Assembly: GCA_018304025.1 (NCBI GenBank)
Contig: JAGVXA010000011.1
Coordinates: 1-36,399, forward strand
Origin: Candidatus Pacearchaeota archaeon
Lineage (GTDB): Archaea > Nanobdellota > Nanobdellia > Pacearchaeales > GW2011-AR1
Direction: 5' to 3'
Length of the DNA stretch: 36,399 nt
In this document: one piece after another, positions 3,921 through 26,020 of the stretch
Layout of the letters: each line of letters starts with the position of its first letter
How positions within the stretch are numbered: the first letter of the stretch is position 1
Translations under genes and position numbers: made by a program
The notes under the pieces: generated by a model
Database searches by the model: none
Seen by the model: the letters and a program-made list of their open reading frames with translations, nothing else
What the model was told of the DNA's origin: nothing

Positions 3921-6900
3921 ACAATATTTCAAGATGATTCAGGAGAAAGTTAATGAGAATTACGCGATTGCTGAGACGGCGCGGGCGAAGGGGCTGGATC
4001 CTATTGCGAAAGTCGAGATTCCGATTGCGCTGTCTTTAGCTGAAAAAGCAACAGGGCTGATCAGCTCGCTGTACCCCCAAATTGCAGACAAAAGAATTGT
4101 CAATAGAATTTTAGAATTAGAAAAACAATTCGGCTCTCTGGATCCTGCTGTCGCTTTGTCAATTGCCGAGGAAATTGCCAAAGAAAAATTTTGCAAGTTT
4201 AAAAATCATCACGAGGCGATTGAGGCAGGAGTGAGAGTTGCAGTTGCATACATGACTTTAGGTGTTGTTTCGTCGCCTATTGAAGGATTTGTCGAGTTGA
4301 AAATTGCCAAGACGCGGGACGGAAAAGATTATTTTTCTCCGTTTTACTCAGGGCCGATTCGTTCAGCAGGAGGAACAGAGGCTGCTTTTTCTTTAGTTGT
4401 TGTTGATTATCTGAGAGAAATTTTTGGCTATGCTAAATACGACCCTACCGAAGACGAGGTTAAGAGGTCTGTGCACGAGAGTTATATGTATCACGAGAGA
4501 ATCACAAACTTGCAATATCTTCCGACTGAACAAGAGATTGATTTTTTGGCCAGGAATATTCCTGTTCAAGTATCTGGAGATCCGAGCGAAGATAAAGAAG
4601 TTTATAATTACAAAGATTTAGACAGAATTGAAAGTAATTTTATAAGGAGCGGTTTTTGCCTGACTTTGAATGAAGGGCTTGCGCAGAAAGCGCCGAAGAT
4701 TTGGAAGAGAATTCAGAAGTTGAGAGAAAAGGGATTTAAGATGAGCGACTGGGATTTTCTTGGAGAGTTTGTTTCCCTGCAGAACGACTTGAAGAAAAAA
4801 AAGAAGGCAGATATTTCAGGGGGCGCTGTTTACATAAGAGATTTAGTTGCAGGGCGTCCTGTATTCGGGCATCCTTCTGTTTCCGGCGGATTTAGGCTTA
4901 GATACGGGCGAGCTAGAAATACAGGATATTCTGCTTTAGGATTGCATCCCGCGACAATGGAGATTTGCGGAGGATTTATCGCGTCCGGCACGCAGTTGAA
5001 AATTGAAAAACCAACGAAAGGGTGCGCTGTTGCCTCGTGCACTTCTGTCGACGGGCCGATTGTGAAGTTTAGAGATGGTTCTGTGAAACAAATCTTCGAT
5101 GTTGACGAAGCAAAGAAAAGATATAAAGAAGTTGAAGAAATAATTTATCTGGGGGATTTGCTGGTGCCTTATGGGGATTTTGCAAACAGAAATCATAAGC
5201 TTGAAAAACAAGGATACATTGAGCAGTATTGGCTGGCTGAGGTTCGCGAAAAAGGGGGAGATTCTGAGTTGTTTGTTGATTTTGACAAAGCTGTTGAGAT
5301 TTCAAAAAGATTAGGTGTGCCCCTGCATCCGAAATTTATTTATTATTGGAAAGAAATAACAAATGATAATTTTTTAGGATTATTAGACTGGCTGGCAAGA
5401 GGGGAAATTACCGACGGAAAATTGGTTTTGCCGTTTGGTGTTTCTGAGAGGAAAAGATTTGCTAATGGAAAAAGAGCTTTGGAATTGATTGGCTGCGAAC
5501 ATAAAGTTGTTTTGGATAATGTTGTTGTTAGTTCCGGAAGAGAGCTGCTATTTAATCTTGGCGCAGATGTCAGTGACGGATTAGAAAACGGGATTGATGT
5601 TGTAATTAGAAAAGTCAAGGCGATGGGTGAAAAAACTGTTTTGGAGATAATTAACGGGCTGTGCTCTTTAGAGATTAGGGATAAGTCTGGGACATTTATT
5701 GGAGCGCGAATGGGGCGTCCTGAGAAAGCAAAACTTCGAAAGTTGACTGGAAGCCCGCATGTTTTGTTTCCCTGCGGAGAGGAAGGAGGGCGCTTGAGAA
5801 GTTTCCAAGCTGCTTACGATGTTGGAAAAGTAAAATCAGATTTTTCTGTTTATTACTGCGACAAATGCTTTCGAGATGAAATTTCTCCTACATGTTTGAA
5901 GTGCGGGGGAGTGTGCAAGAAAATGAATTACTGTCCTGAATGCGACAAGAATTACGACGGAAACTGCTTGATTCACGAGAAAGTTTTTGCATATAGGAAA
6001 AAAGGATTAGATATTAGAGAATATTTTGAAGCGGCTAAGAAATTGGCAAAGGTTTCCGGGGATGAGATACCACTTGTTAAGGGAATAAGGGGAACGAGCA
6101 GTGCTGAGCATACTTGTGAGCTGCTTGCAAAGGGTTTGCTGAGAGCAAAGTATAATCTAAACGTTAACAAAGACGGAACAATACGATATGATATCAGCGA
6201 GATGCCTCTCACACATTTTAAACCGAAGGAAATTGGAACATCTATTTCTAAACTGATAGAACTAGGCTATGAAAAAGATGTTTACGGCAAGGATTTGTCG
6301 TCGGATGAGCAAATTCTGGAAATATTTCCGCACGATGTTGTTCTGCCTGCGTGCCCGGAGACATTAGATGAACGGGCTGATGATGTTTTTGTTAAAGTTG
6401 CGAAGTTTGTTGATGACGAACTGGAAAATATTTATTCTATGGGTAGATTGATGAAAATTAATTCGCGGGAAGATTTAGTCGGACAATTGCTGGGATGCAT
6501 GGCTCCGCATAATTGTGCTGCTGTTGTTGGGCGGTTGATTGGGTTTTCAAAAACGCAGGGAATGCTGTGCAGTCCGTATATGCATGCTGCGATGAGGAGG
6601 GACTGCGACGGTGACGAGGCGGCTGTTATGCTTTTGATGGATATGCTGGTTAATTTTTCGAAGAAATTTTTGCCAGCTCATCGAGGAGGAACACAGGACG
6701 CACCTCTTGTCTTGAACGCGCGAATGAAACCGGGGGAAGTGGATGATATGATTTTTGACGTCGATACTTCGCGGGAGATTCCTCTGGAACTATTCCGCGC
6801 TGCTGAACTTGGAAAAAGCCCGTATGATATTAAGATGGAACAAGTTCGGGGAAAATTGGGAAGCGATGACGCTTTTCTGAATGTTTGGTTCAGCTACGAT

Positions 6901-8547: not shown

Positions 8548-8876
8548 AGAGCAGAGACTGTCAAGATAGAGAGATATGACAAAACTTTCAGTTTTATTAA
8601 TAATTCAAAATAATTATCTGAATTTGATTTCTCTTCGTTATGATGTGCCTTGGAGGTTTAAGACAAATTAAAAATATAACAAATTGAAGGGTTTACCCTG
8701 AGAAGTTTACAGTATCTAGAGAGCATATAATTTTTAGTATATAAATTCTATTCATTTAGGCACGCAATTGGACTTGCCAATTCTAGTTGCTGGCAAGTCT
8801 TATCGGTAAAAAATTTGCTTCGCAAATTTTCTGCGTGCCTAAATAAATATTTAAATAGAATATTCTTTTGAATTAA
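8548..8876. other. 329-bp intergenic region
   Basis: This gap holds no ORF I can support. It contains an imperfect palindrome at about 8603-8621 (TTCA...ATAATTAT...TGAA), a short AGGG-TTTA-CCCT hairpin near 8688-8699, the three-way-junction element at 8754-8844 and a TATA-like AATATTTAAATAG near 8846-8858 for the next gene. Confidence 0.6.
8754..8844. repeat. Three-way-junction inverted-repeat element (reference copy)
   Basis: A perfect 13-bp outer stem ATTTAGGCACGCA (8754-8766) / TGCGTGCCTAAAT (8832-8844) encloses two perfect 9-bp hairpins: GACTTGCCA/TGGCAAGTC (8771-8779, 8791-8799) and AAAATTTGC/GCAAATTTT with loop TTC (8810-8818, 8822-8830). The linkers are AATTG before the first hairpin and TTATCGGTA between them. 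The three nested units at 14281-14547 share these linkers and stem edges. The element ends only about 33 bp before a gene start, next to its TATA box. Confidence 0.85.
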
Positions 8877-14221: not shown

Positions 14222-14631
14222 ATAATTTTGTTTCTGAATGTAATTGGATGCTAATTGTAATAGATAAAATATAGTTGTTTTCGGCACGCAATTGGATTCG
14301 CAATTTTTTGTGGCGCGAGTCTTATCTTTAAAATTCGCTTTTGATGCGTCGCAATTGGACGCACTAAATCAATTTTCTCGGTGCGCAAATTGGACTTGCC
14401 TGTTCTTGTGGCTGGCAAGTCTTATTATTAACAGCTCACTCCGTTCGCTGGTGCGCACCGAGTAATTGCGTTCGGCTGTGCGTCTTTTCTTTAAAATTCG
14501 CTCCGCGAATTTAGCGACGCATCAACTCCGCAAATTTAGCGTGCCGAAGTGAATTTTCTGCGTCGCTGAAAATAATTTTGAGAGCGTGCTGAAGAACATA
14601 GTTTTATTAATTATCTTGAATAAATTTTGTT
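14222..14631. other. 410-bp intergenic region
   Basis: No gene is supported here. Most of it (14281-14547) is a nested inverted-repeat array. The remainder holds fragments related to the array (GCGTCGCTG near 14560, AGCGTGCTG near 14583) and ATTAATTATCTTGAAT just before the next gene, similar to the AAGATAATTATCTT palindrome at 28819-28832. Confidence 0.6.
14281..14547. repeat. Three nested three-way-junction inverted-repeat units
   Basis: Unit 1 has outer stem TCGGCACGC/GCGTGCCGA (14281-14289, 14539-14547), hairpin GATTCGC/GCGAGTC (14295-14301, 14315-14321) and a second stem AAATTCGC (14331-14338) / GCAAATTT (14530-14537). Unit 2 lies inside the loop of that second stem: GATGCGTCGC/GCGACGCATC (14343-14352, 14514-14523), GACGCAC/GTGCGTC (14358-14364, 14478-14484) and AAATTCGC/GCGAATTT with loop TCC (14494-14512). 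Unit 3 lies in the loop of unit 2's first hairpin: CTCGGTGCGC/GCGCACCGAG (14377-14386, 14453-14462) and GACTTGCC/GGCAAGTC (14393-14400, 14414-14421). All share AATTG and GTCTT linkers with 8754-8844. Confidence 0.85.
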
Positions 14632-19817: not shown

Positions 19818-21182
19818 ATGATATTAGAGAAACTGGGAAGCAGTTTGAAGAAAGCGACTGACAAAATAGCGAATGCTGTTTTTCTGGACAAGAGTTTGGT
19901 TGATTCTGTTGTTCGGGATTTGCAGAGGGCGCTGATTGAGGCGGATGTTAATATTCAATTAGTGAAAGAGATTTCTGAGAAGATAAAACAATCTGCTTTA
20001 GACGAGAGGATTAAGGGGATTGAGAAGAAGGAACACATAATCAAATTGATGCACGATTCTTTGATTAAGATTTTGGGGAAGGGTCGTGAAGTTGAGCTTG
20101 GAAAGAAAAATGTCTGGCTGTTTGTCGGGCTTTATGGTGCGGGAAAAACTACGACGATTGGAAAAATTGGGGCGTATTACTCTAAACGAGGAAAGAAAGT
20201 TTGCGCTGTTGGACTGGATGTTCATCGTCCTGCTGCGATGGAGCAGTTGAAACAAGTTTGCGCTAATGTTAAAATTGATTGTTTTGTCGACGCTAACGCG
20301 AGCGATGCTCTTGTTGTCTGGAAAGAGTTTAAAGAAAAGACAAAAGATTATGACTTGGTTTTGGTTGACTCTGCTGGACGAGATGCTCTTGACGCGGACT
20401 TGATTAAAGAAATTAAATCTGTCGGGAAATTAGTGGGGGCTTCAGAGAGATTTTTAGTTATACAGGCGGATATTGGGCAGACTGCGAAAAAACAAGCTGC
20501 TGCTTTCAAGGAAGCTGTCGGGATTACTGGTGTTGTGATTACGCGAATGGATTCTACTGCCAAAGGGGGCGGCGCTTTAACTGCGTGCGCTGAAGCTGGC
20601 GTCGGTGTTGTTTGGATTGGCGTCGGAGAAAAGCCAGTTGATTTGGAATTGTTTGAACCAGAAGGATTTTTGTCGAGGATGCTGGGGATGGGAGATTTGA
20701 AAGCTCTGATGGATAAAATTCATTCTGTAGTTGACGCGAAAGATATTAAAGCTGCGCAGGCGCGGTTAGCTGAGGGGAAATTTACGATGGATGATTTTAA
20801 AACGCAGTTGGATTCAATGGGGCAGCTTGGTTCGTTTGACAAGATTATGGGGATGGTTCCTGGGATGAGCAAGATTAAAGAGAAAGTTGGAGAGGATGTT
20901 TTGGAAAGCCAGCAGGAAAAAACAAAGAGATGGAAATATTGCATCGAGTCAATGACTCCTGCTGAAAGAGAAAACCCTTCTTTATTAGAAAAAGAAACTT
21001 CAAGGATACAAAGAATCGCTCATGGTTCGGGTTGCACAACTTCTGACGTTCGGGCTTTATTGAAACAATTCAAGATGCTGAAGGAAATGATTGGGATGCA
21101 ATCTGGTTTGGCGGAGGGGGGAATTGATAATAAGATGATGATGAAATTGGCGAGGAAGTTTGGGAAGAAGATGCGATTCTGA
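19818..21182 (+). CDS. srp54: SRP54, signal recognition particle GTPase
   Basis: SRP54 binds signal peptides and 7S RNA and delivers ribosomes to FtsY. The 454-residue protein has an N domain, G1 GLYGAGKT at residues 104-111, DVHRPAAMEQL, DSAGRDALD, then a G4 region with ITRMDSTAKGGGAL and GVGEKP. A linker leads to the M domain (about 300-450) with GMGDLKALMDKI and Met-rich helices, including KIMGMVPGMSKI and a GSGCTTSDVRALLKQF segment. All parts look intact. No SRP RNA was found in the window. Confidence 0.96.
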   Translation: MILEKLGSSLKKATDKIANAVFLDKSLVDSVVRDLQRALIEADVNIQLVKEISEKIKQSALDERIKGIEKKEHIIKLMHDSLIKILGKGREVELGKKNVWLFVGLYGAGKTTTIGKIGAYYSKRGKKVCAVGLDVHRPAAMEQLKQVCANVKIDCFVDANASDALVVWKEFKEKTKDYDLVLVDSAGRDALDADLIKEIKSVGKLVGASERFLVIQADIGQTAKKQAAAFKEAVGITGVVITRMDSTAKGGGALTACAEAGVGVVWIGVGEKPVDLELFEPEGFLSRMLGMGDLKALMDKIHSVVDAKDIKAAQARLAEGKFTMDDFKTQLDSMGQLGSFDKIMGMVPGMSKIKEKVGEDVLESQQEKTKRWKYCIESMTPAERENPSLLEKETSRIQRIAHGSGCTTSDVRALLKQFKMLKEMIGMQSGLAEGGIDNKMMMKLARKFGKKMRF

Positions 21183-25926: not shown

Positions 25927-26020
25927 TCACTTGTTTTCTGGCCGAATCGTCGTGAGCAAGTGAATTTATGGCGACGCATCAACTTCGTGTCGCAATTTCC
26001 TTCGCGGCGAATGAGTTAGT
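25927..26020. repeat. Inverted-repeat element related to the nested array
   Basis: TCACTTG/CAAGTGA (25927-25933, 25957-25963) is followed by GCGAC/GTCGC (25971-25975, 25989-25993). GCGACGCATCAACT at 25971-25984 is identical to 14514-14527 in the nested array, which links this copy to that family. Its remaining structure is less clear and may be decayed. Confidence 0.55.

Follow-up and report, generated by a model that had tools for sequence, protein, structure and literature searches.

Nested small palindromes in a Candidatus Pacearchaeota genome, probably copies of a non-autonomous mobile element

The window, by which we mean the whole 36,399-nt stretch of a Candidatus Pacearchaeota contig analysed here, contains at positions 14280-14548 three three-way-junction units nested one inside another, with paired stems and recurring linkers. 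We consider these to be nested copies of a non-autonomous mobile element that most likely moves as folded single-stranded DNA during replication, a reading to which we would give a probability of about 0.6, and we propose to call the element a self-nesting small mobile palindrome. Its copies are dispersed through the genome, occupy fixed positions in loops, have invaded protein-coding sequence in frame, covary with no excess of G.T, and are biased to the G-rich strand in five species. The protein encoded at 19818-21182 of the window has its nearest relative in a Pacearchaeota genome (69% identity).

Each unit reads, from 5' to 3', outer stem, AATTGG, hairpin 1, GTCTTNTNNTTAA, hairpin 2 and the closing arm of the outer stem. 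As an earlier note on this DNA had described, unit 2 lies in the hairpin-2 loop of unit 1 and unit 3 in the hairpin-1 loop of unit 2, and the linkers that it regarded as conserved do recur, AATTGG following every outer stem and GTCTTNTNNTTAA separating the hairpins. Its description of the stems as mostly perfect also holds, with the correction that one mismatch (AAATTCGC/GCAAATTT) occurs within hairpin 2 of unit 1, but its size range of 7-10 bp was too narrow, the longest stem being 12 bp. The features of the window are as follows.

14280..14548, + strand: unit 1, outermost, type A, with all nested parts; stem TTCGGCACGC/GCGTGCCGAA, inverted repeat I16
14280-14289/14539-14548, + strand: outer stem of unit 1, 10 bp, perfect; covariance-model match of unit 1 at 14279-14354
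14290..14321, + strand: linker AATTGG and hairpin 1 of unit 1, GATTCGC...GCGAGTC with one T.G; repeat families D1 and D3
14331..14340, + strand: 5' arm AAATTCGC of hairpin 2 in unit 1 with the first part of its loop, which unit 2 splits; read from the sequence, compare the 37 uninterrupted loops
14341..14525, + strand: unit 2, type D, in the hairpin-2 loop of unit 1; stem TTGATGCGTCGC/GCGACGCATCAA, inverted repeat I5; junction as in 14/14 type-D copies
14341-14352/14514-14525, + strand: stem of unit 2, 12 bp, perfect
14374..14465, + strand: unit 3, type C, in the hairpin-1 loop of unit 2; stem CTCGGTGCGC/GCGCACCGAG, inverted repeats I4 and I9; 54.6 bits
14374-14387/14452-14465, + strand: stem of unit 3, 13/14 paired
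14392-14421 and 14432-14450, + strand: the two hairpins of unit 3 itself
14526..14537, + strand: remainder of the hairpin-2 loop of unit 1 and its 3' arm CTCCGCAAATTT; read from the sequence; repeat family D8
14262..14279, + strand: AT-rich 5' module of unit 1, AGATAAAATATAGTTGT, a weak form of TATATAAA
8755-8843, with its module 8736..8849, + strand: fourth unit, type A, un-nested; model match of 78.3 bits
8736-8751, + strand: AT-rich module AGTATATAAATTCTAT of the fourth unit
25935..26010, + strand: degenerate remnant with the type-D 3' arm GGCGACGCATCAACTTCG, between two genes; pattern match, fold not significant

Folded as DNA, the segment 14280-14548 reaches -71.2 kcal/mol against a mean of -37.7 for shuffled sequences (z -9.5; 0/200 shuffles as good), and the RNA fold of the same segment gives a z of -6.9. 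DNA comparison of the segment with its own genome returned 61 partial matches. Since a MAFFT alignment of mixed units placed their 3' outer arms wrongly, a covariance model was built from eight single units with matching linkers, and this model identifies 63 copies at E<0.005 in the 992-kb (0.99-Mb) assembly; the genome-wide search for further copies that the earlier note had proposed thus yielded dozens. Applied to nine other genomes of the genus, the model finds 22 copies in four of them (12 in G002, 7 in G008, 2 in G003 and 1 in G001) and none in the other five species; the relatives do not show a single conserved RNA, the outcome that the note had set against its own reading. No units were found outside the genus among 112 genomes of the family under stricter filters. 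An Rfam search of the window matched only two tRNAs and no family corresponding to the units. A search for viral carriers gave no hit to the strict pattern, and its 45 loose pattern matches held no unit by the model. The strand and helix analyses below cover about 404 kb of the own genome (G000, whose contigs are given as C numbers without prefix) distributed over 10 contigs, together with short pieces of another three; these 404 kb contain 44 merged loci, or approximately one per 10 kb. Units are about 75-110 bp long with outer stems of 9-12 bp, have no coding capacity and are nearly all intergenic. They fall into several subfamilies that differ in stems and sites and have defined edges within unrelated flanks.

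The positions at which units occur within one another are highly regular. Type D, defined by its TTGATGCGYYGC stem, is found only in hairpin-2 loops, and all 14 of the 14 type-D copies with an intact 5' end follow AAATTYGCT, with a constant junction and in the orientation of the host. The uninterrupted hairpin-2 loop occurs 37 times in the genome, so that filled and empty loops coexist, and type C (CTCGGTGCGC stem) is located in hairpin-1 loops. At the type-D junctions (GCT^..^CTCCGC) a 2-bp CT duplication is indistinguishable from no duplication. The P-type loop provides an empty and filled pair, with ACAAAATTACTTCGTAATTTTGT empty at C6:57841 and filled at C6:13585 and C6:9064; here a 77-bp unit lies between ACAAAATTACTTCG and TAATTTTGT, that is between CTTCG and TAATTTTG, and target duplication is absent. 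Repeated insertion of the element into its own loops, as first suggested in the note, finds support in the presence of both filled and empty loops and in the constancy of their junctions. That the insertions at the window locus were stepwise is less clear, as units 2 and 3 may have come in as a single block. This block recurs, about 93% identical, at G000:C15:7008-7254, where the hairpin-2 loop that houses it belongs to another outer unit, with a hairpin 1 unlike that of unit 1 in the window; nested blocks are therefore also copied as such. Local copying contributes as well, because at C4:8645-8818 hairpin 1 is identical in host and guest and C6:42676-42812 is a tandem array of 58-bp period. 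Part of the nesting thus looks locally copied, and independent insertions may be mixed to some extent with the spread of nested blocks. In the wider region C6:42676-42850, the 58-bp tandem on the 5' side has its counterpart on the 3' side in truncated 16-bp repeats (TTTAGCGACGCATCAA), equal in number, which gives the impression that 5' and 3' arms were copied jointly. No orthologous empty site was obtained for the window locus, the one locus tried, where gene order differs in the relative G005.

Two further features of the hairpins were observed. A second conserved segment, GTAAGAACCCTTCTCGGTTTCTTACCAACTTCCCCTTGCAATACGTTCAAGGCTGAT, comprising two small hairpins, lies within hairpin 1 of several units (C1:10951, C13:14391, C21:36200, C21:52790 and C4:16350), and its 3' part is also present in G002 (C11, ~4139-4278). 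Hairpin 2 of many units has the loop GCTTCGC, which reads GCGAAGC on the opposite strand; GCGAAGC is an unusually stable DNA mini-hairpin.

Within each contig of the own genome, every copy lies on one strand. This is the G-rich strand at 43 of the 44 merged loci, the exception having a local skew of -0.005. Neighbouring genes are oppositely directed in 12/41 cases upstream and 15/43 downstream, and on contig C6 minus-strand coding predominates, yet the copies are all on the plus strand. With neighbours mixed and C6 coding mostly on the minus strand, gene direction does not explain the orientation of the units. The GC skew retains its sign, at least approximately, whichever strand the genes lie on, as expected of replication skew, and we use it here as a proxy for replication direction. 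Of 19 copies in the four other species, 17 lie on the strand expected from the skew, and both exceptions are on one 7-kb contig with a skew of ~0.

The pairing of the units is strongly conserved in spite of variable sequence. In an alignment of 69 rows (8 of them reverse-strand duplicates of included units), 26/26 model pairs changed on both sides, with a covariation score of 0.51 compared to 0.15 for shuffled alignments (0/500 as high). The relatives' units, treated separately, gave 19/26 pairs and a score of 0.43 compared to 0.16 (again 0/500). These alignments were fitted to the structure and hence lean towards it, and the signal is lost on sliding the partners. The 82 distinct helices collected without the covariance model comprise 748 Watson-Crick pairs and 25 interior mismatches (6 G.T, 8 A.C and 11 other). 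RNA under selection would be expected to retain G.U and lose A.C. G.T shows no excess over A.C, and this favours palindromes at the DNA level over RNA. Compared with a structured non-coding RNA family, the units show strong covariation, no tolerance of G.U and no corresponding Rfam family. The symmetry of the arms fits perfection at the level of DNA, through recent copying, arm-to-arm correction or selection on the folded DNA; the upkeep of stems by selection or copying, which the note left as alternatives, appears to act on DNA, as G.T is not tolerated.

Units also occur within protein-coding sequence. The 574-codon gene at C21:21602-23327 contains two units on its opposite strand, with the reading frame unbroken. 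Its product matches the YgiQ family (TIGR03904) with 523 bits in two stretches; once the two unit-bearing segments are removed, a single stretch scores 549 bits, and what is left of the protein aligns in three parts with profile positions 17-205, 210-400 and 400-557. Judging by their lengths, the inserted segments exceed the junction and take in the upstream AT-rich module. No ortholog of this YgiQ gene was found in the genus, and hence no relative's empty site is available for it. A third unit lies in frame in the small ORF C13:43793-44164, which has no Pfam or NCBIfam match. We take this ORF to resemble MazG-like proteins.

The AT-rich module accompanies many free-standing (type-A) copies, in which TATATAAA is found in a longer context ~17 nt upstream of the stem; it is also present in the relative G002, and nested type-D copies are without it. 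In the 404 kb, 6/6 occurrences of TATATAAATTATAT and 4/4 of TATATAAAATATAT directly precede a unit, and the module is element-specific. It resembles an archaeal TATA box, which at the usual spacing would place a transcription start inside the unit, past its first arm. A transcription-oriented RNA reading based on this module was considered but dropped in view of the G.T/A.C comparison and the strand test.

No resident enzyme for mobilisation was recognised. The own assembly, which is 88% complete, has no match to Y1_Tnp (PF01797), and for TnpB only a sub-threshold match was obtained, so this candidate was rejected. Y1 genes are present in 8/10 genomes of the genus, among them those of all four other species that carry units, and the end hairpins that flank these genes differ from the units. 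The only neighbourhood of the two kinds that we found is at G008:C76:3521-4144, where a unit lies ~300 bp upstream of a degraded Y1 gene. Given the lack of a Y1 gene in the own assembly and the differing ends in relatives, a Y1 transposase was rejected as resident mobiliser. A transposase gene flanked by the repeats, as in the REPtron arrangement, was not found. With respect to the traits of PATEs, the units show a replication-arm bias (by the skew proxy), and neither a resident Y1 gene nor ends in common with an autonomous Y1 element. The own genome also has an RVT_1 match at C11:28064-28555; the gene adjoins two near-identical repeats of ~80 bp whose differences fall at T (on the opposite strand, A). 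These look like the template and variable repeats of a diversity-generating retroelement to which the gene would belong, for which reason the reverse transcriptase was rejected as mobiliser.

We suggest the following mechanism for the mobile element. Each copy would be a DNA palindrome folding into a three-way junction made up of outer stem, unpaired AATTGG, hairpin 1, unpaired TCTTATCNGTAA and hairpin 2. From the strand bias we suppose that the element moves in folded, single-stranded form while exposed on one arm of the replication fork, the lagging-strand template being the simplest choice; there a single-strand nuclease acting in trans, such as a Y1/HUH transposase, could cut and join it. 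The unpaired loops of hairpins would be preferred targets, and repeated rounds of insertion, together with the copying of nested blocks, could build up the nesting. A more specific version, in which DPANN archaea would harbour a hairpin element of single-stranded DNA that is coupled to replication, prefers loops of its own kind, depends on an enzyme not recognisable as Y1 and grows by nesting, can be put forward only tentatively.

Several other explanations deserve consideration. Nested units could arise in place by replication errors, meaning hairpin-primed template switching, slippage and quasi-palindrome correction, and be spread by homologous recombination with no transposase. This would account for the identical hairpin 1 in host and nested copy at C4:8645-8818, the 58-bp array at C6:42676-42812 with its matching truncated 3' arms and the perfection of stems on both arms, and the strand bias is compatible with errors linked to the fork. 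However, the type-D stem is unlike the stems of its hosts and confined to hairpin-2 loops in 14/14 cases, and copies lie in unrelated intergenic sites and in the YgiQ gene, with subfamily edges defined in unrelated flanks, making such an origin rather unlikely. We regard it as improbable that the units are a family of structured small RNAs, each transcribed from a promoter of its own, with nesting as incidental duplication: G.T is no commoner than A.C, Rfam offers no match, orientation tracks GC skew and not transcription, copies lie antisense in a protein gene, and the established TATA-to-start spacing would begin the transcript inside the unit, beyond the 5' outer arm. These objections outweigh, in our view, the covarying three-way junction with its conserved unpaired linkers and the fixed placement of the TATATAAA module ~17 nt upstream of type-A copies, G002 included.

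The near-total orientation bias in five species and the spacing of about one locus per 10 kb might instead suggest polar chromosomal signals, kept in one orientation by selection and serving replication, segregation or repair. It is hard to see why, within a single genus, one species should have 63 such signals and others none, nesting and in-frame invasion of a gene would be senseless for a signal, and there are several subfamilies whose flanks differ; we therefore think this very improbable. Least credible is a retro-element, with a folded RNA reverse-transcribed and inserted at nascent fork strands. Group II introns do show a replication-strand bias and an RVT_1 gene is present at C11:28064-28555, but this reverse transcriptase looks associated with a diversity-generating retroelement, G.T is not tolerated, and the AT-rich module travels along despite lying upstream of the putative start.

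IS200/IS605 elements insert as single-stranded DNA into the lagging-strand template (PMC6006769), and a 2018 survey found IS200-like elements to be the only TnpA-Y1 subclass in Archaea (PMC6006769). The units share with these elements and with PATEs, as far as the accounts compared describe them, subterminal hairpins, the lack of target duplication (here at the P-type loop) and, on our reading, insertion as lagging-strand-template single-stranded DNA (PMC6006769, PMC3119063). They differ in that no Y1 or clear TnpB was detected in the own genome, in their long outer inverted repeats, and in that the Y1 elements of relatives have other hairpins. Like REP/REPIN sequences with TnpA-REP (RAYT), they are short, dispersed, mostly intergenic palindromes presumably mobilised in trans as single-stranded DNA; unlike them, the Y1 genes here are not flanked by units, two unlike hairpins lie inside a third stem, and the units nest in themselves. 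Rickettsia palindromic elements are of similar size and occur in frame in protein genes (PMC10969869), as do the two units in YgiQ, whereas the present family, compared with them by description and not by sequence, is mostly intergenic, self-nesting and strand-oriented. A MITE of a DDE transposon was rejected, as unit stems vary at every position and duplication is absent from the P-type junction. Mitochondrial GC clusters, double-hairpin elements and repetitive hairpin elements are described as mobile hairpin DNA with no coding gene (PMC4478555, PMC2800124); GC clusters merge and shuffle into composites (PMC4478555), and those of yeast are flanked by AG or ACT duplications (PMC4478555, PMC2800124). 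They differ in being organellar, and the parts of these papers compared here describe no orientation to the replication strand (PMC4478555, PMC2800124).

The nearest known kind, going by the sections of its description used here, is SMR-A of Haloquadratum walsbyi (HqIRS42, HqIRS43 and HqIRS55), which behaves similarly and qualifies the earlier statement that no named archaeal element has this form (PMC3119063). SMR-A elements are ~110 bp long, present in tens of copies and too short for a transposase, with terminal inverted repeats unrelated to known transposons and no target duplication; their three families share no sequence similarity with each other, and they insert within palindromes of other elements, namely PATE and IS605 targets (PMC3119063). 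Both kinds are archaeal, non-coding and of similar size, have inverted repeats and insert within palindromes, and target duplication is absent at the P-type loop here, the type-D junctions fitting a 2-bp CT or none. SMR-A hit its own kind once in 114 events (PMC3119063), whereas the recurrent targets here are the hairpin loops of the family itself, and neither the three-way-junction form nor the replication-strand orientation is described for SMR-A in those sections (PMC3119063). The combination of self-nesting with near-absolute replication orientation is, as far as we have searched, undescribed in the literature. On a comparison of descriptions, we file the family as an archaeal small mobile palindrome and not as a member of SMR-A. 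The discoverers of SMR-A called its mobilisation enigmatic (PMC3119063), and on this question of how tiny transposase-free archaeal palindromes spread, the family, which shows nested palindromes building up in a genome of ~1 Mb and entering a protein gene in frame, gives two handles: an almost absolute orientation to GC skew, suggestive of fork-associated single-stranded DNA, and the constancy of the insertion position within the loop.
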